Assembly (NCBI GenBank): GCA_905181865.1
Contig: CAJIZG010000001.1
Span: forward strand, 124,001 to 188,000
From: Urechidicola croceus
GTDB lineage: Bacteria; Bacteroidota; Bacteroidia; Flavobacteriales; Flavobacteriaceae
Length of the DNA stretch: 64,000 nucleotides
Direction of reading: 5' to 3'
Below are positions 16,420-33,505 of this stretch, piece by piece. The notes beneath the pieces are model-generated. The model was not told where the DNA came from. It saw only the letters and a list, made by a program, of their open reading frames with translations, and ran no database searches. The position numbers and the translations under genes are program-made. Positions within the stretch are counted from its first letter, which is position 1, and every line of letters begins with the position of its first letter.

Positions 16420-17109
16420 TTATTTTAATCTGGAAGAAACTAAGCTGTAAACGCGCTCAAATTGCTCCTTTAAACCCATGTCTGAATTGTTTATTTCAAT
16501 AGCGCCATTAGCTTTGATTAGTGGGGAATCCTCCCTCGTAGAATCAATGTAATCTCTAGACTCTAAATTCTTTAGTACACGCGCATAAGAAATGTTTTTA
16601 TCTCCTTTATCTACTAACTCCTTATATCTGCGCTTCGCTCTAATATCTGAGTTTGCCGTCATAAAAAATTTTAAATCTGCATCCGGAAAAACAACAGTTC
16701 CAATATCTCGACCATCCATAACAATCCCCTTATTTTTCCCCATTTCTTGCTGTTGCTCTACCAGTTTAGTTCTGATTTTAGAAACAGTCGCCACTTTGCT
16801 AACAAATTGAGAAACCGCCAAGGTTCTAATTTTATCCTCCACGTTTACACCATTTAAAAATACTTCTGCAAATCCTACATTCTGGTTAAAAACAAAATAG
16901 ATATTAATTTTATCAATATTTTCTATTAATTTTTCCTTCTTAAAATAATCAACAGTAATCATTTTTTGTTGCATGGCGAACAAGGCAACTGCTCTATACA
17001 TGGCACCCGTATCGACATATATATATTGCAATTTATTTGCTAGTTGTTTGGCCAAAGTACTTTTCCCTGTAGAAGAAAATCCATCAATTGCAATTGTAAT
17101 TTTTTTCAT
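16420..17109 (-). CDS. cmk: Cytidylate kinase
   Basis: 229 residues from MKKITIAIDG. P-loop AIDGFSSTGKSTLA at residues 6-19, nucleotide-binding VDTGAMYRAVALFA, and DGRDIGTVVFPDADLKFF with RAKRRY (lid). It phosphorylates CMP and dCMP. A start 7 codons upstream is possible but not family-like. Downstream of the amidohydrolase gene by 38 bases, same strand. Confidence 0.97.
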   Translation of the reverse strand: MKKITIAIDGFSSTGKSTLAKQLANKLQYIYVDTGAMYRAVALFAMQQKMITVDYFKKEKLIENIDKINIYFVFNQNVGFAEVFLNGVNVEDKIRTLAVSQFVSKVATVSKIRTKLVEQQQEMGKNKGIVMDGRDIGTVVFPDADLKFFMTANSDIRAKRRYKELVDKGDKNISYARVLKNLESRDYIDSTREDSPLIKANGAIEINNSDMGLKEQFERVYSLVSSRLK

Positions 17110-24664: not shown

Positions 24665-26065
24665 ATGATTCAGAACGATACTATCATTGCACTTGCTACT
24701 CCTTCTGGAATGGGAGCGGTTGCCATCATTCGCTTGTCTGGTAAAGAAGCTATTTCTATAGTTTCAAACCAATTCAAGTCTAAAAAGAGCGAAAAGGACT
24801 TAACCCATGTCAAATCACACACACTTCATTTGGGAAATATTATGGATGGTAAACGTGTAATTGATGAAGTTTTGGTTTCTATATTTAAGAACCCATATTC
24901 TTATACTGGTGAAAATGTAGTGGAAATTAATTGCCATGGCTCCATTTATATCCAACAAGAAATTATACAATTGTTCCTAACCAAAGGTTGTAGAACTGCC
25001 ACTAATGGTGAATTTACACTGCGTGCTTTTACCAATGGTAAAATGGACTTAACTCAGGCAGAAGCCGTTGCAGATTTAATCGCTTCTGATTCTAAAGCAT
25101 CACATCAAATTGCCTTGCAACAAATGCGTGGTGGGTTTTCGTCTGAAATAGCAGACTTAAGAGAGCAACTATTAACTTTTGCTTCTTTGATAGAATTAGA
25201 ACTAGATTTCTCTGAAGAAGATGTTGAATTTGCAGATAGAACTCAGTTTAAAGAATTGGTAACCAAGCTTTCTTCCATTTTAAAAAGATTGATAGACTCT
25301 TTTGCTTTGGGAAATGTGTTCAAAAATGGAATTCCAGTTGCTATTGTAGGGGAACCTAATGTAGGGAAATCTACATTACTCAATTCGCTGTTGAATGAAG
25401 AACGCGCCATCGTATCAGATATCGCAGGTACCACTCGAGATGCGATTGAAGATGAAATTGCAATTGGTGGGGTGACTTTTAGATTTATAGACACGGCTGG
25501 AATTAGAGATACGAAAGATGTTATTGAAACTATTGGGATAAAGAAAACATATGAAAAGATTGAGCAGGCACAGTTAGTTGTCCAAATGTTAAATGCTTCT
25601 AAGCTGTTAAATAATGATACGCAGCTGAAAGAAGTTCAGCACACTAGTAAAGAACTTCAAGAGAAATACCCAAATAAAAGGATTCTTACTATACTCAATA
25701 AAGTTGATTTAATTTCGGATGAGCAACTCTCAAATCTCAAAACTCGAATTTCAAATACCATTGAATTGTCCGCTAAAAACAAAACAGGTATTAAATTATT
25801 AACCAGTGAGTTAACCAACTTAGTTAATATTGGAGCTTTAAGTAATAATCAAACAATTGTGAGCAACAACAGACACTTCGAAGCCTTAACATTTGCCTTA
25901 GTCGCTATTAAAGAAGTTGAAAATGGAATGGCGGTCGATATTAGTTCTGATTTGTTAGCCATTGATATTCGTCAGGCCTTATTTCACTTAGGTGAAATTA
26001 CTGGGGCTGTTACAACTGATGATCTACTAGGAAATATCTTTGCTAATTTCTGTATAGGAAAGTAA
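24665..26065 (+). CDS. mnmE: tRNA modification GTPase MnmE
   Basis: 466 residues, full length. N-terminal formyl-THF-binding domain (TIIALATPSGMGAVAIIRLSG), then an inserted G domain with GEPNVGKSTLLNSLL, DIAGTTRD, DTAGIRDT and NKVD, and the essential C-terminal FCIGK whose cysteine is required for activity. With MnmG it makes the cmnm5 wobble-uridine modification. The last six codons form the left copy of a 25-bp direct repeat; the gene's own terminator seems displaced to 28122-28148. Confidence 0.98.
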   Translation: MIQNDTIIALATPSGMGAVAIIRLSGKEAISIVSNQFKSKKSEKDLTHVKSHTLHLGNIMDGKRVIDEVLVSIFKNPYSYTGENVVEINCHGSIYIQQEIIQLFLTKGCRTATNGEFTLRAFTNGKMDLTQAEAVADLIASDSKASHQIALQQMRGGFSSEIADLREQLLTFASLIELELDFSEEDVEFADRTQFKELVTKLSSILKRLIDSFALGNVFKNGIPVAIVGEPNVGKSTLLNSLLNEERAIVSDIAGTTRDAIEDEIAIGGVTFRFIDTAGIRDTKDVIETIGIKKTYEKIEQAQLVVQMLNASKLLNNDTQLKEVQHTSKELQEKYPNKRILTILNKVDLISDEQLSNLKTRISNTIELSAKNKTGIKLLTSELTNLVNIGALSNNQTIVSNNRHFEALTFALVAIKEVENGMAVDISSDLLAIDIRQALFHLGEITGAVTTDDLLGNIFANFCIGK

Positions 26066-26072
26066 CCACTAC
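26048..26072. repeat. Left copy of 25-bp direct repeat (attL-like)
   Basis: Begins TTCTGTATAGG and ends AACCACTAC; spans codons FCIGK and stop of mnmE plus 7 bases. Identical to 28075-28099. After one mismatch, AAAC also matches, giving 29 of 30 bases. Confidence 0.95.
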
Positions 26073-26340
26073 AAAACAAACAGAGAGAAAACAAAATATT
26101 ATTGAAACTATAAATGAAGTTGCTACACCAACTGAAGATACCCGTACTTTAAAAAGAAAGGTGGCCATTGCTCGATTCTCTAATGAGACAAGCTATGCCA
26201 AAGGTCTTTTCTATGACAAAAATAATGATCCTATAGGCAAGCAAGCAGTGGATATTCTTTCAACTAAACTTGCATCTTTAGGAAAATTTATATTACTAGA
26301 GAGACAAGATTATCAATTAATTAATTTGCTATTAACTTGA
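26073..26340 (+). pseudogene. csgG-like fragment (curli assembly/transport component)
   Basis: An open frame without start reads through TPTEDTRTLKRKVAIARFSN, ETSYAKGLFYDKNNDPIGKQ and LGKFILLERQD, then stops at 26338-26340. This is the conserved N-terminal part of CsgG-family outer-membrane lipoproteins; the signal peptide and the pore-forming C-terminal part are missing. It starts inside the left 25-bp repeat, so it was probably brought in, or truncated, by the insertion event. Confidence 0.7.
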
Positions 26341-26390
26341 ATAAATTTGATTAATTAAATATATTGATATAGATAAAAGAAGCCAACAGT

Positions 26391-27518
26391 TTAATCGAGT
26401 TCTAATACAGTTACTTGTTCCTCTCTTGTTTTCAACATAAAATCGTCAAATTCGAGATAAAAGTTCTCCAAAGAAATACCATAATAAGCTTCAAAAGCAT
26501 ATTTATACCCTTCTCCATAATGGGTTCTTTCTAATTCCGCTAGATTGATAAAATAATCAAAAATTAAATTATTTAATGTCGCGCGCCCTGTTTTTAGCAG
26601 GTATAAATGGGCTATTGCACCACCTGAATATTGATATGCAAACTTTCGAGAAATTCCTGTTGGATTGTTTGAGGATTCTACTCTTCGAATATTATCACTC
26701 GTGTTATAATCTTCGAGATGAACAATATCACTTCTCGTCATTGCATCTTCAATTACCTCTCTCGCATCATCTAATACGCTTGTAAAAAAAGGCTTTAATT
26801 CTATCCAATCTTCCTCAGAAGACAGCATGATCGCAGCAAAATCAGCACCTCCTTCTTCTAACCAAACTGGTCCCACAAAAGGGATGTAGTCTAGTGCACT
26901 CCTGTCAATGATTCTATCTATATTCCAACCAAAATTCTTAGTTTCTTCAAAATAAAATTTATGAGAATTTTGATAAATATGAAAGAATTCGTGATATATT
27001 ATTTTTTTGGCTTCCCCTAAAGGAAAGTCAGGTTCAAAAAAACCTTGAGCCAGTTCTCCTTGACCTCCGTTATGCAAGTTTGAAAAATCTACTCCGGCTG
27101 CCGCCGTATAATCTGAAGGATCGAAACCTTCTGAAGTCATCTTTAGCGCTTTCCAATTATTCATAACTAACTCTAGGTCAGAGATGCCATTGTAATAGGC
27201 CGTAATATTAATAGGTACCAATTGCCCCAATCGGCTCGATGCTGCTTTTAAAACTTCATTTATTATATTTTTAGATTGCTCTGAAACCCCCGCATAGCTA
27301 TTTACACAAAGCTTCTGCATTCCTTCTTCTGTCTGCCAAACATATGTATAATAATCATAGTTATTCTCAGAAGAATCAGGACTTGGCATTTTAGGATAAA
27401 AGGGGGTATTGCATTCAAATGACGATTCTATTGGAGGAATAACCGGTGTAATAGTGTCGTCTGAAGCGCAAGAATACATCACAAAAAAAAGAATTATCAA
27501 TTTATTAAAAAATTTCAT
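26391..27518 (-). CDS. Putative zinc metallopeptidase lipoprotein
   Basis: 375 residues with a lipoprotein signal (FFVMYSC, lipidated Cys about residue 17) and a Pro-rich linker after it. A gluzincin-type zinc site is visible: HEFFH inside KKIIYHEFFHIYQNSHKF near residue 170, and a downstream WLEEGGADFAAIML with the likely third ligand Glu. Not assigned to a named peptidase family. It is the only intact gene inside the candidate element at the mnmE end and is transcribed against mnmE. Confidence 0.6.
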   Translation of the reverse strand: MKFFNKLIILFFVMYSCASDDTITPVIPPIESSFECNTPFYPKMPSPDSSENNYDYYTYVWQTEEGMQKLCVNSYAGVSEQSKNIINEVLKAASSRLGQLVPINITAYYNGISDLELVMNNWKALKMTSEGFDPSDYTAAAGVDFSNLHNGGQGELAQGFFEPDFPLGEAKKIIYHEFFHIYQNSHKFYFEETKNFGWNIDRIIDRSALDYIPFVGPVWLEEGGADFAAIMLSSEEDWIELKPFFTSVLDDAREVIEDAMTRSDIVHLEDYNTSDNIRRVESSNNPTGISRKFAYQYSGGAIAHLYLLKTGRATLNNLIFDYFINLAELERTHYGEGYKYAFEAYYGISLENFYLEFDDFMLKTREEQVTVLELD

Positions 27519-27663
27519 AAGTAAAGGATTATAATATCAAAAAAATTTGTAACTTCTTAGAGCACCTAATATAAACACTATTATATTCTTGACTATTAAT
27601 TATGAATGGCTTTTGGTATGGAAATTCATTTCCCTTTCCTTGCATCTGTCATGTTTTATATTT

Positions 27664-27785
27664 TCATTCAAAATCAGAACCTCCAGAGTCATATCTCCAA
27701 ACTTGAGCACCGACTTGAAATAAAGACGTTACAAATTGTAATAATAGAAAATTTTGTTGTGTTAGGTTCTTTAAAAGTTTGATTG
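27664..27785 (-). pseudogene. C-terminal coding relic inside the element
   Basis: On the minus strand an open frame reads LTQQNFLLLQFVTSLFQVG, AQVWRYDSGGSDFE and a stop at 27664-27666, with no start. It looks like a protein tail left after deletion; family not recognised. It lies upstream of the metallopeptidase gene on the same strand. Confidence 0.35.
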
Positions 27786-27838
27786 TAATACAAAAGTACA
27801 AAATAATAAAACCTATCTCTTATATTAAAGTGATAATT

Positions 27839-27974
27839 AGTTCACTTTTTGCTGACGTTATACAATGGTTTGTTTCTTTTGTGTTTTCATAATTTATCAA
27901 ATTTAAAGATTTTGAAAACACTCTCTATGAAATTGTCTAAATCAGTCCACTTTTTGCTGACGACTTACAATTGG
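27839..27974. repeat. Pair of imperfect 30-bp direct repeats, 105 bp apart
   Basis: Copies at about 27839-27868 and 27944-27974 share the exact core CACTTTTTGCTGACG (27843-27857, 27948-27962) followed by similar TACAAT(T)GG ends. No gene explains them; they lie in the right part of the candidate element. Confidence 0.7.
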
Positions 27975-28019
27975 AAAGCGCTGTTAATTTACTTTATTAT
28001 TGAATGTCTCGTACTAAAA

Positions 28020-28041
28020 TGTACCTTATTTGTACCTTATT
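28020..28041. repeat. Tandem 11-bp repeat TGTACCTTATT x2
   Basis: Two perfect head-to-tail copies (28020-28030, 28031-28041), 34 bases before the right 25-bp repeat. The TGTACCT core recurs in the dyad at 28209-28241. Spacing and position fit recombinase arm-type binding sites, but this is inference. Confidence 0.7.
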
Positions 28042-28074
28042 TTTTTAAAGCCCCATAAACAATAGTTAATTACA

Positions 28075-28099
28075 TTCTGTATAGGAAAGTAACCACTAC
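28075..28099. repeat. Right copy of 25-bp direct repeat (attR-like)
   Basis: Identical to 26048-26072, but without the mnmE coding sequence in front. Followed after 22 bases by a rho-independent terminator. Confidence 0.95.
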
Positions 28100-28121
28100 T
28101 AAACATATCAAAAAATACTAT

Positions 28122-28148
28122 AAAGCCTTTTAATTAAGGCTTTTTTAA
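28122..28148 (+). terminator. Rho-independent terminator, probably the original mnmE terminator
   Basis: Stem AAAGCCTT / AAGGCTTT (28122-28129, 28136-28143) with a 6-base loop and a T-run. No plus-strand gene precedes it directly; the sequence just before it is a copy of the mnmE end, so it most likely belonged to mnmE before insertion. Confidence 0.75.
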
Positions 28149-28208
28149 TATTCTGAAGTTAATATTTACTTTGTAATGATATGTGTTTTCTAAGTGCAGA
28201 TTTGTATC

Positions 28209-28241
28209 TTTTCTGTACCTCGAATGATGAGGTACAGAAAA
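28209..28241. repeat. 13-bp perfect inverted repeat with 7-base loop
   Basis: Arms TTTTCTGTACCTC (28209-28221) and its exact complement (28229-28241). No T-run follows on the plus strand. The arms contain TGTACCT, also found in the tandem repeat at 28020-28041. Could be an operator-like or recombinase site. Confidence 0.8.
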
Positions 28242-28242
28242 C

Positions 28243-28362
28243 TCATTCAGAGACTCAGGAGCCATAGAAATCTTTAAAAGAACACTTTATGACGCCAACT
28301 TGTTACCAACCTCTTCATTTCGAACCGATGATTGGGAAGAGTCCACTCAAAATTTAGATTAA
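28243..28362 (+). pseudogene. Unidentified coding relic before the IS3 fragment
   Basis: A 39-codon open frame without start: SFRDSGAIEIFKRTLYDANL then LPTSSFRTDDWEESTQNLD, stop 28360-28362, one base before the transposase ATG. Composition looks like protein; family not recognised. Not typical of IS3 OrfA. Confidence 0.3.
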
Positions 28363-28998
28363 TGTATCGTATTGAAAAAATGTGTAAAGTATTAAAAGTG
28401 AGTAGAAGTTTTTATTATAGATGGTATTCTAGAGGTATTTCTAAACGAGAATTAGGAAATATTGAATTTACCAAACTCATAAAAAAGATATTTCATGAAA
28501 GTAAATAGCGGTATGGAAGTCGCAGAATACGAACAAAATTGTGTAAACAAGGTTATTTAATATCAAAAGTACGCGTGTCTAAATTAATGAAGTTAAATTA
28601 TTTAAGGAGTATGATGAAACGAAAAGATAGGGTTACAACGAATTCCAATCATACGTTTTCTATTTCTAAGAATCATTTAAATAGAGCGTTTATATCTGCA
28701 ACATTGAATGAAGTTTGGGTATCAGACATTACATATATGAGAACCGCCCAAGGATGCCGGTATTTAACTATAATTATTGATTTGTATGATCTAAAGGCAA
28801 TCGGATGTACAGTGAGCAGTAATTTAGTAACAAAAGAACCATTATACCTGCTTGGAGAATAGCATTGTCGAAAAAAAATATAACAAAACTATTGCTTTTT
28901 CATTCAGATAGAGGTGTTCAATATATAAGTAGTTTATTCCGAAAACACTTAAGAAGCAACGATTTAATTACTCAAAGTATGAGCAGAACTGCCGAGCA
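28363..28998 (+). pseudogene. IS3-family transposase OrfB relic
   Basis: From ATG the frame reads CKVLKVSRSFYYRW, an amber stop within the usual GRYGxRRI motif (seen as SK*RYGSRRIR), VWVSDITYMRT with the first catalytic Asp, IIIDLYDLKAIG, then near 28835 a one-base frameshift to TIIPAW, LLLFHSDRGVQY with the second Asp, and LITQSMSR. After that the catalytic Glu region is missing. IS3/IS150-type integrase core. Clearly inactive; no OrfA or terminal inverted repeats were found. Confidence 0.85.
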
Positions 28999-29200
28999 CA
29001 TCACGAATTCCATAATTTAAAATAAGGAATAATCTTATACCTACCCGTTACCTACAACCCCCTTATAATAAAAAAAAATTATATATTTAATTGGAGATGT
29101 AGAACTGTTTTCTTGACATTTTTATTAGTTGTTTTGAATACTCATTAATACTTTTACAAGCATTAATGGCTAGTATTTACACATAAAAACATAATAAAAA

Positions 29201-29560
29201 ATGAATAGAAAGGAATTAGTTGGAGCGTTTAGTATAATTGGACGTAATCAAGATGAAGAAGGTTTAGCCTATAAAGGAACGCTAGATTTATCATTAGATG
29301 AGAATAATAAAATCAACGCTAAATGGCTTATAAATGATACTCAAATTCAATTAGGAACTGGGTTTTTTAAAGATAGTATTTTGGTTGTTAATTTTAATTA
29401 CAAAGGAGACAATGAAATAATCTTTAAGGGCGTTGTGGTCTATAAATGTATTACTAAAGATCTTTTAGATGGCTTTTGGTCAGAAAAACATGGAAACCCA
29501 CTTTATCTTGGAGAAGAACGTTGTTTTAGAATGGGTGAGCAAAAAGAGCTGATTCATTAA
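29201..29560 (+). CDS. Hypothetical small cytoplasmic protein
   Basis: 119 residues, no signal peptide or membrane segment. Alternating polar/hydrophobic pattern suggests a beta-rich, lipocalin-like sheet (LVGAFSIIGR, YKGTLDLSLDENNKINAKWL, DGFWSEKHGNP). Family not recognised. It stands alone between the IS relic and a 910-base gene-poor stretch, so it may be accessory DNA. Confidence 0.55.
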   Translation: MNRKELVGAFSIIGRNQDEEGLAYKGTLDLSLDENNKINAKWLINDTQIQLGTGFFKDSILVVNFNYKGDNEIIFKGVVVYKCITKDLLDGFWSEKHGNPLYLGEERCFRMGEQKELIH

Positions 29561-29842
29561 AACTTGATTCAAACTTATCTCATTCAAAGACGCAAAATTC
29601 TCTCTAAGTTACTGTAATTTATTATCTTAAATATTTGCTTGTTTCATTTCGCTAACTTGTTTTTGTAACAAAAAATACTGAAATTATCATGATTTGAAAT
29701 AAATAGTCTGATTAAAATCTACAATCGGCTCATTTGTTTTAATTAAGAATAAATACGTTTACGTTGATAAAGTTAGAACAATAAAGTAGTTATCTCCGCA
29801 TTGGCTTTATGCAAAAGATTGTAACCGCAAAATATCTTTAAT

Positions 29843-29917
29843 CTACGTTAAAAGACCTAAAAGCAGAAATAGTATTACAAATAATAAACCGAATAAAATA
29901 CTTCTTTTAACACTCAT
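29843..29917 (-). CDS. Possible 24-residue hydrophobic membrane peptide
   Basis: MSVKRS followed by ILFGLLFVILFLLLGLLT and a stop: a positively charged start and a single 18-residue transmembrane stretch. It lies in the 29561-30470 gap, where I see no other gene. AT-rich DNA can give such ORFs by chance, so it is only a candidate. Confidence 0.25.
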   Translation of the reverse strand: MSVKRSILFGLLFVILFLLLGLLT

Positions 29918-30339
29918 CTCTATGAATTTAACTACAAACATCATTGCTTGCTCATTTTTTTATGCAATAAACTTAGCGGGGTGTAATTAATAAAAAAATG
30001 CATAATTCTAAAGGTACGATATTTCGCAGTAACCAGCAAATTTTTTACATCAAAATACTGATACTCAGTTTCGTATTAAAACTGACATTTGCGTTGAAAA
30101 ATAAGTGTTTTTGAATACGTTGGCTACTACGTATTTAAAAAAGCAATATATCGCCTAAAAAACTATCTTGATGGGTATTAACACTATTTTGAGTTAGCTA
30201 AACTGCCCTACTGAGTCAATAAATAGTATGAATATGTCAATAAAATGTAAAAACGACTGATCTGACTGCGAATTTAGACCCTGATAAACTTTTAGCATAT
30301 ATGTGTCAATTTTATGAGTTTCTTTAAGGTGATTGTCTT

Positions 30340-30347
30340 TATCTTTG
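30340..30347 (+). promoter_or_regulatory. Possible -7 element of the MFS gene
   Basis: TATCTTTG fits TAnnTTTG and lies 123 bases before the chosen MFS start. No clear TTG 19 bases upstream. Confidence 0.35.
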
Positions 30348-30470
30348 CCACATATTTTTACTGAAAAATGGCCAATATCACTTCTTATCAAGACTCGTTT
30401 ACACCTTTTTTGTACCTCAAAAACAGAACGTACCTGTTTACAAGAATTACATTTTGTATTCGAAAGTAAT

Positions 30471-31616
30471 ATGAACATTCACAATCGACAACGCGTTGCC
30501 CTAAATATCTACTTTTTTTTATCTGGCGTATGCTTTGCTTCTTGGGCTTCTAGAATTCCAACTATTAAAGATTTTTTTAATTTTAATGATGCTGTTTTAG
30601 GAAGTGTTCTATTTGCTATGCCTGTAGGTTCTATAGTTGGGCTACCGATATCGGGATGGCTCGTTTCTAAATTCGATAGTCGAGTTCCTCTTATCTTCTC
30701 TTTTATTTTATTTTGTATTTGCTTAGCAATCATTGGCTTTGTACAAACACCTTTTGTTTTAATTATATGCCTTATTGTATTCTCATTCTGTATGCGAATC
30801 ATAGTTATTTCTATTAACACCCAATCCCTAGCCATCCAAAAGAATTTTCAAAAAAGAATCGTTGGGTCTTTTCATGCTGTTTGGAGTACTGGAGGAGTTC
30901 TAGGTATATTGATCACTACCTTAATGATTCGGCTAGATATCAGCATGCAAACGCATTTATTAGCCGTAGCAATCATCACAATTTTAGTTTCACTAATTAC
31001 TTATAAGTACACCATTAGAAATGACAAATCTCTCACGGGAAATAAAATTATTTTTGGCAAGCCAGATCTTTTCATACTATATTTAGGAGTAATTATTTTT
31101 TTTTCTGCACTAGTGGAAGGCGGAATGTATGACTGGAGCGGAATTTATTTTAAAGAAGTAATAAATGAGGATATTTTTACTTTTGGGTACCTTATTTTTA
31201 TGAGTTGTATGGCATTTTCTAGATTTTTTACAGATAAACTTGTTGAAGTTTTAGGGATGTTTAAAACATATGTTTTAAGTGCTATTCTTATTGCTTCTGG
31301 AATTTCTTTAGCTATATTATTCCCTTATTTTTGGACTGCCCTTATCGGCTTTTGCTTGGTGGGATTTGGCACATCACCTATTTTTCCTATGACTTATTTA
31401 TTGGCCGGAAATTCAAAAAAATATTCACCGGGAATGGCTATTTCTATTATCTCTACCTTTTCAATAGTTGGTATGTTATTGGGGCCACCATTTATAGGGT
31501 ACTTATCACACGCTATCGGATTAAGATTAGCATTTATAGTTTTTATAATAGCAGGTCTTATGTATATCCCTATATCAAAACATTTTTTTAATTTAGACCA
31601 AAATAAATCGTCTTAA
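30471..31616 (+). CDS. MFS transporter
   Basis: 382 residues from MNIHNRQRVALNIYFFLSG; an in-frame upstream extension of 46 residues is not hydrophobic in the MFS pattern and was rejected. About 12 transmembrane segments with the loop 2-3 motif GWLVSKFDSRVPL near residue 60 and CFASWASRIPTIKDFFNF in TM1, typical of the small bacterial MFS group related to YbjJ/FucP-type carriers. Substrate unknown. Followed by the HAD gene 26 bases later, possibly one unit. Confidence 0.85.
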   Translation: MNIHNRQRVALNIYFFLSGVCFASWASRIPTIKDFFNFNDAVLGSVLFAMPVGSIVGLPISGWLVSKFDSRVPLIFSFILFCICLAIIGFVQTPFVLIICLIVFSFCMRIIVISINTQSLAIQKNFQKRIVGSFHAVWSTGGVLGILITTLMIRLDISMQTHLLAVAIITILVSLITYKYTIRNDKSLTGNKIIFGKPDLFILYLGVIIFFSALVEGGMYDWSGIYFKEVINEDIFTFGYLIFMSCMAFSRFFTDKLVEVLGMFKTYVLSAILIASGISLAILFPYFWTALIGFCLVGFGTSPIFPMTYLLAGNSKKYSPGMAISIISTFSIVGMLLGPPFIGYLSHAIGLRLAFIVFIIAGLMYIPISKHFFNLDQNKSS

Positions 31617-31642: not shown

Positions 31643-32446
31643 ATGAATATTAAATGTATTTGCTCAGATATTGATGGTACTTTACTCAACAAGGATCGAG
31701 AGCTTTCTTGTGCTACTATTGAACAAATACAAAGGTTATCTCATATACCGTTTATATTGATTTCGTCTAGAATGCCAAAAGCAATGAGGCATCTCCAAAA
31801 AGAACTTGATATTTTACATGTACCACTAATTGCATATAACGGAGGTCTTATTATTGATAATGGTGAAATCATTGATACTACGGAAATAGAAATTTCGATT
31901 ATTGAAAAACTTTTTGATTTTATCTCCAAGACATCGTTGCATTTCAGTTTGTATCATCGTGATGAATGGTATGTCCCTTCTATGGATTATTGGGCTAAAA
32001 GAGAATCAAATAACACAAAAGTCACACCGTTGATTCAACCGATTCAAAACACATTGAAAAATTGGAAAGCTGAAAATAAAGGTGCTCATAAGATTATGGT
32101 AATGGGCGATGCCGATGAGTTGGATACTGTTGTTTCCCTTATTGCAGAAGTTTTTGATGACGAAATAATAGGGTATCGCTCTAAGGATACCTATTTAGAA
32201 ATAGCCCATAAATCTATTTCAAAAAAAACCGCTATAGAAATATTATTGAATAGTCATTATCCAACATTAAATTTAAATGAGGTATTAGCATTTGGCGATA
32301 ATTATAATGATATTGAAATGCTAAAATCAGTAGGAATCGGTGTTGCAGTTGAAAATTCAAATGAAGCTGTTTTAAAAATTGCCAATGTTATTACAGCTTC
32401 AAATAAAGATGACGGTGTTGCTAAATATCTGTTAAATCATTTTTAA
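31643..32446 (+). CDS. HAD-IIB (Cof-type) phosphatase
   Basis: 267 residues. HAD motif 1 SDIDGTLLN (residues 8-16), motif 2 serines in FILISSRMP, motif 3 Lys in HKSISKKTAIEIL and motif 4 FGDNYNDIEML. The C2B cap marks the Cof/YidA subfamily, which hydrolyses sugar phosphates or cofactors such as FMN and PLP. Start of a possible short operon with the small basic protein and rlmF. Confidence 0.93.
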   Translation: MNIKCICSDIDGTLLNKDRELSCATIEQIQRLSHIPFILISSRMPKAMRHLQKELDILHVPLIAYNGGLIIDNGEIIDTTEIEISIIEKLFDFISKTSLHFSLYHRDEWYVPSMDYWAKRESNNTKVTPLIQPIQNTLKNWKAENKGAHKIMVMGDADELDTVVSLIAEVFDDEIIGYRSKDTYLEIAHKSISKKTAIEILLNSHYPTLNLNEVLAFGDNYNDIEMLKSVGIGVAVENSNEAVLKIANVITASNKDDGVAKYLLNHF

Positions 32447-32447
32447 A

Positions 32448-32597
32448 ATGGGTAAAGATGAGAACACTAAAAACAAGGGGAAACATGCTAAGTTAATGAA
32501 TCATAAAAAGAATAAACTTAGAAAGCATAAATTAGCTTCGGTAGAACGAAAAAAAGAATTAATTCAAAAAATGAATGCACAACGTAAAACAGCATAA
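32448..32597 (+). CDS. Small basic protein, 49 residues
   Basis: Reads MGKDENTKNKGKHAKLMNHK and continues with KKNKLRKHKLASVERKKELI to a stop whose last base is the first base of the rlmF ATG (TAATG). Very rich in Lys, with few hydrophobic residues, so probably a nucleic-acid-binding peptide. The tight junctions on both sides (1 base after the HAD gene stop, overlap with rlmF) argue that it is real and translationally coupled. Family not recognised. Confidence 0.65.
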   Translation: MGKDENTKNKGKHAKLMNHKKNKLRKHKLASVERKKELIQKMNAQRKTA

Positions 32598-33505
32598 TGA
32601 CTAAACAAAGAAACGAAACTAATTTACACCCCAATAATATCCATCGTCATGGATACGATTTTGAAAAATTGTGTACCGAAAACCCTGATCTATCTACTTT
32701 TGTATTTGAAAACAAATACAATACAAAAACCATAGATTTTGCAAACCCAAAAGCCGTTAAAGTATTAAACGCTGTGCTTCTAAAAAGTTATTACACTGTT
32801 ACAGATTGGGATTTTCCTGAAGAAAACTTATGCCCTCCAATTCCGGGCAGAGTAGATTATATTCATCACCTGAATGATTTATTGAACGATTCGGGAATTA
32901 TAAATAATACCCGTATTCTCGACGTTGGAACAGGAGCAACTTGTATTTATCCAATTCTAGGTCATGTATTATTTAATTGGTCTTTTCTTGGGAGTGATAT
33001 AGATGCTTCTTCATTAGAAAATTCTAAAGCGATTATTAATAAGAATAATTTTGAAGCATCTATAGAATTATACCATCAAGAAGATGAAACTATCATACTA
33101 AATAAAGATTTTTTTAAAAATCCCTTTTCAGCAAGTATGTGTAATCCTCCGTTTTATGCTTCACAGTATGAAGCAGTCGAAGCAAATGCTAGAAAATTAA
33201 AAGGTTTGGGAATTGATAAAACCGCTAGAAATTTTGGGGGTGTTCAGAATGAATTATGGTATAAAGGAGGAGAAAAAGCATTCCTACACAATTACCTATA
33301 TCAAAGTTCTTTGTTCAAAAATGACTGTTATTGGTACACTTCGTTGGTTTCAAAAAAAGAGAACATAATAAGTATGGAGACTTCTCTTAAAAAATTGGGA
33401 GCCATTGAAATTAAGGTAATCCCAATGCATCAAGGAAACAAAATAACACGAATCATAGCATGGACCTACCTAACTAATGAGGAGCGCTCTAAATGGATCA
33501 AATAA
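32597..33505 (+). CDS. rlmF: 23S rRNA (adenine-1618-N6)-methyltransferase
   Basis: 302 residues. N-terminal LHPNNIHRHGYDF and SAM-binding ILDVGTGATCIYPILG (about residue 112), with the N6-adenine motif MCNPPFYAS. These match RlmF, which methylates A1618 in 23S rRNA. The start overlaps the stop of the small basic protein by one base. Confidence 0.93.
   Translation: MTKQRNETNLHPNNIHRHGYDFEKLCTENPDLSTFVFENKYNTKTIDFANPKAVKVLNAVLLKSYYTVTDWDFPEENLCPPIPGRVDYIHHLNDLLNDSGIINNTRILDVGTGATCIYPILGHVLFNWSFLGSDIDASSLENSKAIINKNNFEASIELYHQEDETIILNKDFFKNPFSASMCNPPFYASQYEAVEANARKLKGLGIDKTARNFGGVQNELWYKGGEKAFLHNYLYQSSLFKNDCYWYTSLVSKKENIISMETSLKKLGAIEIKVIPMHQGNKITRIIAWTYLTNEERSKWIK

Follow-up and report, generated by a model that had tools for sequence, protein, structure and literature searches.

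Remnant of a probable site-specific insertion at the 3′ end of mnmE in Urechidicola croceus, and use of the site by tyrosine integrases of Bacteroidota

The subject of this analysis is a 64,000-nucleotide stretch of the Urechidicola croceus genome (assembly GCA_905181865.1, contig CAJIZG010000001.1, positions 124,001 to 188,000), here termed the window. Within it, the 3′ end of the tRNA modification gene mnmE (trmE/thdF) is repeated about 2 kb downstream. The repeat, the DNA enclosed by its two copies and the corresponding region of other Bacteroidota genomes are considered below. Positions are those of the window; genomes are designated by G numbers and loci by L numbers.

The repeat and the DNA between its copies

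24665-26065, + strand: mnmE (trmE/thdF), an intact open reading frame (ORF) of 466 aa with the Pfam domains TrmE_N, MnmE_helical and MMR_HSR1
26048-26072, + strand: attachment-like site in the attL position, left copy of the 25 bp repeat (sequence match)
28068-28099, + strand: attachment-like site in the attR position, an AATTACA arm and the right copy of the 25 bp repeat (sequence match)

A preliminary description of this DNA, made from the sequence alone, had reported a perfect 25 bp direct repeat at the mnmE end that recurs without mnmE sequence before it, and this holds: positions 26048-26072 and 28075-28099 are identical, no other match is found in the window at up to three mismatches, and 100 shuffles gave none. 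With one mismatch allowed, the repeat lengthens to 31 bp (26048-26078 and 28075-28105). The left copy is the 3′ end of the intact gene, and the final five mnmE codons plus the stop codon, which are the last 18 bp, constitute the target core. Genome-wide, the degenerate motif TTYTGYATHGGNAARTAR occurs only twice, at the two window copies. Membership in a general repeat family was looked for and is rejected, as the sequence repeated in this genome is the end of an insertion sequence (IS) and not the mnmE end. With 25 exact bp, and with the same genes following it as follow the far copy in a related genome (G006, below), the second copy can hardly be explained by chance or as a conserved regulatory motif.

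Three features lie between the copies.

26074-26340, + strand: csgG-type gene fragment (PF03783, 7.2e-7 on 26161-26337), with a full-length homologue in G015
26391-27518, − strand: cargo gene for a predicted lipoprotein of 375 aa with HEFFH and WLEEGGA motifs (ORF; motifs by eye)
27800-27866, strand not assigned: terminal 65-67 bp of a ~1.48 kb rve-type IS; identical ends occur elsewhere in the genome and the remainder is gone here

The csgG reading frame stays open backward through the left repeat, a property overlooked in the preliminary description, and its start is missing at the repeat. The fragment has neither a signal peptide nor most of the C-terminal side, and is therefore cut at both ends. 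The G015 homologue has 313 aa and a signal peptide predicted by eye. The window copy has thus been shortened at both ends, losing the start at the repeat and the greater part of the C-terminal side, and the cut at the left repeat suggests that a deletion or recombination later took place there. One other match to the csgG piece was found in 80 genomes, a full-length gene on a contig different from that of mnmE.

The lipoprotein gene is intact and is the sole ORF of more than 70 aa in the 2 kb unit. Its product, which by its motifs we take to be a gluzincin-like peptidase, has no match in Pfam, NCBIfam or PHROG, and a homologue is absent from every other genome of the 80 searched (1/80, its own). 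A csgG-peptidase locus shared with relatives and lacking the second repeat was sought in the same 80 genomes and not found, and one shared ancestral locus of this kind is accordingly rejected. The IS end is common: at least 17 other genomic places have 65-67 bp identical to the window piece, a lower bound from 40 of 127 candidates scored. Seven fetched copies (L002-L008) have ~1.48 kb in common at ≥99.7% identity and encode an rve transposase.

The mnmE downstream region in the genus

mnmE was located in 12 of the 13 other genomes of the genus, G008 giving only a weak match to another GTPase. A tyrosine integrase lies ~0.6 kb after mnmE in G001 and G006. The site-specific insertion proposed in the preliminary description is thereby strengthened, since relatives, two of them congeneric, carry integrase-bearing inserts at this gene end; the larger inserts with an integrase, for which it advised a search, are present in G001, G006 and many other hosts. 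In G006 the mnmE end recurs at a distance of 16,544 bp, and the two copies differ at two of 18 bp. The G002 genome has a 356 bp unit flanked by two copies. At the other extreme, in G003, G004, G007 and G012 a conserved small ORF, an HAD gene or rlmF follows mnmE at once or within ~0.4 kb. The contigs of G005 and G013 stop too soon after mnmE.

The region to the right of the second copy in the window contains the following features.

28122-28148, + strand: terminator-like hairpin after the right copy (sequence scan, weak)
28332-29020, + strand: three short ORFs resembling a broken IS3-type transposase, within a possible second unit; the middle ORF matches rve (PF00665, 4.8e-5, under the cut-off) and the first has no Pfam match
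29201-29560, + strand: 119-aa ORF, the homologue of which begins immediately at the right-hand repeat in the G006 element (66% identity; G006 region 16660-17016)
30445-30469, + strand: third, imperfect attachment-like site just 5′ of the MFS gene (motif match with arm)
30471-31616, + strand: MFS-type transporter (named by eye) of the right flank, with homologues also to the right of the G006 element (58% and 61% identity)
31643-33505, + strand: HAD-type hydrolase, small ORF and rlmF-type gene (named by eye), which closely follow mnmE in the emptiest congeners

The far copy in G006 is followed by homologues of both the 119-aa ORF (66%) and the MFS gene (58%); thus the right copy in the window precedes the same genes as does the end of the integrase-bearing element of G006. 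The small ORF, rlmF and HAD genes adjoin mnmE in the emptiest congeners and start 5.6-6.5 kb from it in the window, which indicates that more than the 2 kb intervenes. The direct junction of 26072 to 28100 that had been predicted for strains without the insert is not seen in any relative examined. A displaced mnmE terminator had also been proposed. There is indeed a hairpin after the right copy, placed at 28122-28143 by the scan, but the evidence for a terminator is weak: the scan gave three sites, two of which are this hairpin on the two strands, versus 1.9 expected in shuffles.

The third copy, which the preliminary description did not mention, is at 30452-30469, 2.4 kb beyond the right copy. 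It is on the same strand, has one mismatch to the degenerate motif and is preceded by AATTACA. In 60 simulated 64 kb windows, the mean number of matches at up to one mismatch was 0.1, with a maximum of 2. This suggests that the third copy is an older site and that the window has two units in tandem.

Integrases and integrase-less units at the mnmE end

Seven integrases were found in the first fetched regions, and the five that were scanned have the Arm-DNA-bind_5, Phage_int_SAM_5 and Phage_integrase domains. A small HTH_17 protein is encoded between mnmE and the integrase in G001, G006, G015 and G111; that of G111, the only one tested against NCBIfam, matches an excisionase model. G145 has no small HTH_17 gene in this position. 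Relatives in named genomes were found from an alignment of integrases, and MnmE is encoded directly upstream of the integrase in 76 of the best 80 of 556 confirmed loci (L078-L157). As for the other four, L110 has the motif near a contig edge, L130 and L155 start at an edge, and L120 shows no motif. The hosts belong to Flavobacteriaceae, Weeksellaceae, Crocinitomicaceae, Sphingobacteriaceae, Saprospiraceae, Chitinophagaceae, Cyclobacteriaceae, Spirosomataceae, Prolixibacteraceae, Dysgonomonadaceae, Tannerellaceae and Prevotellaceae.

Among genomes of the family of U. croceus, 43 of 199 have an integrase match at E≤1e-60. Coordinates place 30 of these 43 integrases within 0.2-0.9 kb of the mnmE end or of an mnmE-end motif. 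No motif is nearby in G056, G081 and G154, G069 is at a contig edge, and G049, G082, G122, G128, G141, G144, G148, G204 and G212 stand outside this check. At the level of the phylum, 30 of 395 genomes have a match at E≤1e-100, and the motif is upstream in 18 of the 30 fetched loci.

An integrase tree was built from 109 of the 110 loci L078-L157 and L161-L190, one locus with a piece of ≤300 aa being excluded. It has 94 integrases at mnmE, 13 without an upstream motif and two that are cut off or undecided. The mnmE label changes 8 times on the tree versus 14.3 times when shuffled; the mnmE target is therefore clustered, yet it is not the mark of a single clade. Integrases and the last ~300 aa of MnmE were compared pairwise for 74 of the 80 loci. 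L089 and L090, from metagenome-assembled genomes titled Saprospiraceae and Sphingobacteriales (different orders), have integrases that are 99.7% identical and MnmE ends that are 45.6% identical. The integrases appear to outrun their hosts, and this pair suggests a recent spread.

Viral contigs were also surveyed. The mnmE-end motif is upstream of the integrase in 13 of the best 80 of 138 loci (L191-L270), many of which are at a contig edge, and some predicted phages may use the mnmE site. Phage and plasmid collections gave 19 and 26 records, respectively, with integrase relatives of less than 60% identity.

The sequence next to the core adds a further property. Apart from mnmE ends, 16 of 27 motif copies are directly preceded by TTACT with up to one mismatch, versus 0 of 22 mnmE ends and an expectation of 2.8%. 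These counts, which include the two copies of G050, were made before G089, G093, G097, G137 and G214 were fetched. TTACTTT...AAAGTAA forms inverted arms around the motif centre, as would be expected of a tyrosine recombinase core. The arm of the right copy in the window is TTACA, one mismatch from TTACT. Differences between copies do not place the crossover point, as the search motif itself fixes the positions.

The window is most readily explained as the remnant of a site-specific insertion at the mnmE 3′ end, where a group of Bacteroidota tyrosine integrases would have its attachment site; the probability of this reading is put at roughly 85%. The last 18 bp of mnmE would serve as the chromosomal site. 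An incoming circle would recombine there and keep MnmE whole by supplying the five codons and stop from its own sequence, with a second copy of the mnmE end left at the far end of the element. The window would then contain the remains of one such insertion (26048-28092), followed by a probable second and older one in tandem (28075-30469), the third copy being taken as a real old site. An integrase of this group presumably made the insertion, and its gene was probably deleted rather than never there. As they stand, the units have no integrase and would not move by themselves.

Several findings weigh against this reading. No integrase or integrase fragment was found in the window (open pieces of ≥30 aa, E≤1e-3), and none of the group in the whole genome at E≤1e-60, the best being a 142-aa frame on another contig. 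This integrase C-terminus, on contig 3, was tried as the lost integrase and rejected; there is no mnmE-end motif (up to two mismatches) in the fetched 4 kb. The window repeat extends 13 bp beyond the mnmE stop, where integrase-bearing elements show no similarity in 14 of 14 cases (2-5 of 12 bases match), and its left junction is therefore not a plain attL. G009, G010 and G011 carry 5-13 kb of other genes after mnmE with no recognizable second repeat, and the genomes sampled include no closely related strain in which the site is precisely empty. The tree also includes 13 integrases with no motif upstream and a further two that are cut off. Finally, most far copies were found via the mnmE-derived motif, so that likeness within the 18 bp is partly selection.

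The cargo of integrase-bearing elements is varied. G006 (L043) has a type III restriction-modification system beside a prokaryotic Argonaute, G111 a type IIG/PglX-like protein and an SNF2-type helicase, and G135 an Eco57I-type enzyme. The 19 kb element of G145 (L071) encodes a [NiFe] hydrogenase large subunit, a MobA-type relaxase and an integrase, and is a possible mobilizable hydrogenase island. DUF6266-type genes, seen by eye in G006, G042 and G111, were dropped as a marker of the site since Pfam backs only G111.

Units flanked by mnmE ends and without an integrase match (E≤1e-3) were found in 13 genomes: the window, G002, G018, G021, G027, G042, G087, G089, G093, G094, G097, G137 and G214. 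Twelve belong to the family, the window included, and G027 to the order; the count is of exact-motif second copies after mnmE among the fetched regions, with G050 excluded. G042 (L063-L065, 41 kb) and G089 (L276-L278, 36 kb), from two genera, have a B12 synthesis cluster common to both units (genes named by eye; Pfam was run on three of the proteins), and G137 has a 25 kb unit with a UDP-sugar dehydrogenase and glycan-type genes. The units of G021, G027 and G214 have one or two genes. G087 (L059-L062) has four mnmE-end copies in 64 kb, which delimit three tandem integrase-less segments, and its first and third copies have 80 bp in common after the stop.

Some side observations concern such copies. 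In G018 (L041, C3:189759-189935), a piece like the last ~59 MnmE codons ends in FCIGK but continues without a stop; its position is 42 kb downstream of mnmE, past the second mnmE-end copy, and it is perhaps an older displaced gene end. In G050 (L077, 2020-2584), two mnmE-end-like copies surround a single gene for a 153-aa predicted lipoprotein, with no mnmE before them. In G027 (L058, 94-1731), three mnmE-end copies lie within 1.7 kb, with one small gene per interval. A pattern of single-lipoprotein cassettes (window, G021, G027, G050) is not claimed, as it is post hoc, has few cases and includes G050, which is away from mnmE.

Integrase-less units with large gene clusters bear on the question of decay. 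The preliminary description had deduced decay from the missing integrase; there is indeed none in the window and decay is likely, but it is the broken csgG gene that makes it so. As integrase-less units are common at this site, the missing integrase alone is no proof. The window unit is thus probably a worn, integrase-less remnant. A different view is that the units are passengers, cis-mobilizable elements that have only the two sites and would be mobilized in trans by integrases from resident elements at the same site. Several of the 13 genomes have open and apparently complete cargo genes (G089, G042, G137, G021, G027, G214), and the three tandem segments of G087 fit as well. The csgG gene of the window is itself broken, however. 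In addition, the scan kept only exact-motif second copies and left decayed copies uncounted, so that preservation is not arguable, and the 79-85% DNA identity of the G042 and G089 cargo, next to 75% for mnmE, is compatible with old vertical descent. Passengers are thus considered an unlikely alternative to a decayed insertion. Perhaps the mnmE 3′ end acts as a slow gene-cassette array, in which integrase-less units, from one gene to a B12 pathway, accumulate in tandem at one conserved site, with the integrases of visiting elements mobilizing them in trans; this is put forward as a speculation, and a rather doubtful one.

Similarity past the stop at two copies is found in 5 of the 13 integrase-less cases (window, G042, G087, G093, G094), spanning ~510 bp in G042, versus 0 of 14 integrase-bearing ones (one-sided Fisher p 0.016, G087 being scored by the best of six pairs). 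This raises the question of whether a duplication or homologous recombination doubled the mnmE end together with its downstream flank, with other DNA now between the copies. The right copies examined have no preceding mnmE sequence, and their upstream arm converges on TTACT, which a duplication leaves unexplained; TTACT-armed second copies occur at the same spot in integrase-bearing strains (G111, G145, L136, L156). Tandem units with related left ends account for the shared flank equally well. Duplication as the source of the window repeat is consequently judged improbable. We take the shared flanks to reflect either duplication or a tandem arrangement of units whose left ends are related, and either would also explain the extension of the window repeat past the stop.

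Known islands and the meaning of the site

Salmonella genomic island 1 (SGI1) and related islands integrate at the 3′ end of trmE/mnmE/thdF in Gammaproteobacteria (PMC9035990, PMC8409611, PMC2297512), and the papers found that could be tied to integration at this site concern that class. As described there, these islands share with the Bacteroidota elements the gene end, an 18 bp target, a tyrosine integrase and excisionase, tandem arrays and the use of one site by different families. They differ in host phylum and, as compared by Pfam architecture only, in integrase, the five scanned Bacteroidota enzymes having Arm-DNA-bind_5 and Phage_int_SAM_5. The window has the insertion at the gene end and the repeat of the last 18 bp. 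Its 2 kb unit is too small for the SGI1 backbone; int and xis are lacking to the extent that the window has no integrase of the Bacteroidota group and the unit no ORF of more than 70 aa other than that of the lipoprotein. The backbone genes mpsA, traG, sgaC and traN are likewise not represented, in that the lipoprotein has no Pfam or NCBIfam match (SGI1 proteins were not used as queries). The preliminary description saw a parallel case to SGI1, and the same site is indeed used; the findings go beyond a parallel, as related integrases appear to use the site across Bacteroidota.

The closest likeness is to the integrase-bearing Bacteroidota elements themselves (G006, G111, G135, G145, G165, and 76 of L078-L157), which have the same site and repeat. 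The window shares the second copy with a TTACT-like arm (TTACA, in 28068-28099). In contrast to these elements, which keep an integrase and cargo, its unit has no integrase or recognized mobilization gene; an integrase of their group directly after mnmE, present in G001 and G006, is absent from the window. Having two attachment sites and no integrase of its own, the unit resembles a cis-mobilizable element (CIME), a class mobilized in trans by the integrase of another element, or a decayed integrative and mobilizable element.

In Streptococcus suis, a variable defence locus lies between rpiA and trmE (PMC5398294). Variable defence genes beside trmE recall the mnmE elements, but the host is a Firmicute and the available passages name neither the trmE end nor any repeat of it; this is a hint that the trmE neighbourhood is used in Firmicutes too. 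No report of integration at the mnmE 3′ end in Bacteroidota was found in the open literature, including passages of PMC5704250 and PMC4482086, although subscription papers were outside the scope and a prior description is possible.

On its own the window is unremarkable, probably a worn remnant. The wider result, supported by the genomic comparisons, is that the mnmE 3′ end serves as a landing site across the phylum Bacteroidota, with integrases of its own. Bacteroidota would thus have an island hot spot comparable to that of trmE and SGI1 in Gammaproteobacteria, with a base-exact target and a recognizable integrase group. Among the cargo are anti-phage systems, genes for B12 synthesis and a [NiFe] hydrogenase accompanied by a relaxase, and for annotators of Bacteroidota genomes, accessory load may be findable right after mnmE. 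If integrases of the two phyla came to these 18 bp independently, their common target would show what a good landing site needs, namely a coding end that is conserved and that the element is able to restore.

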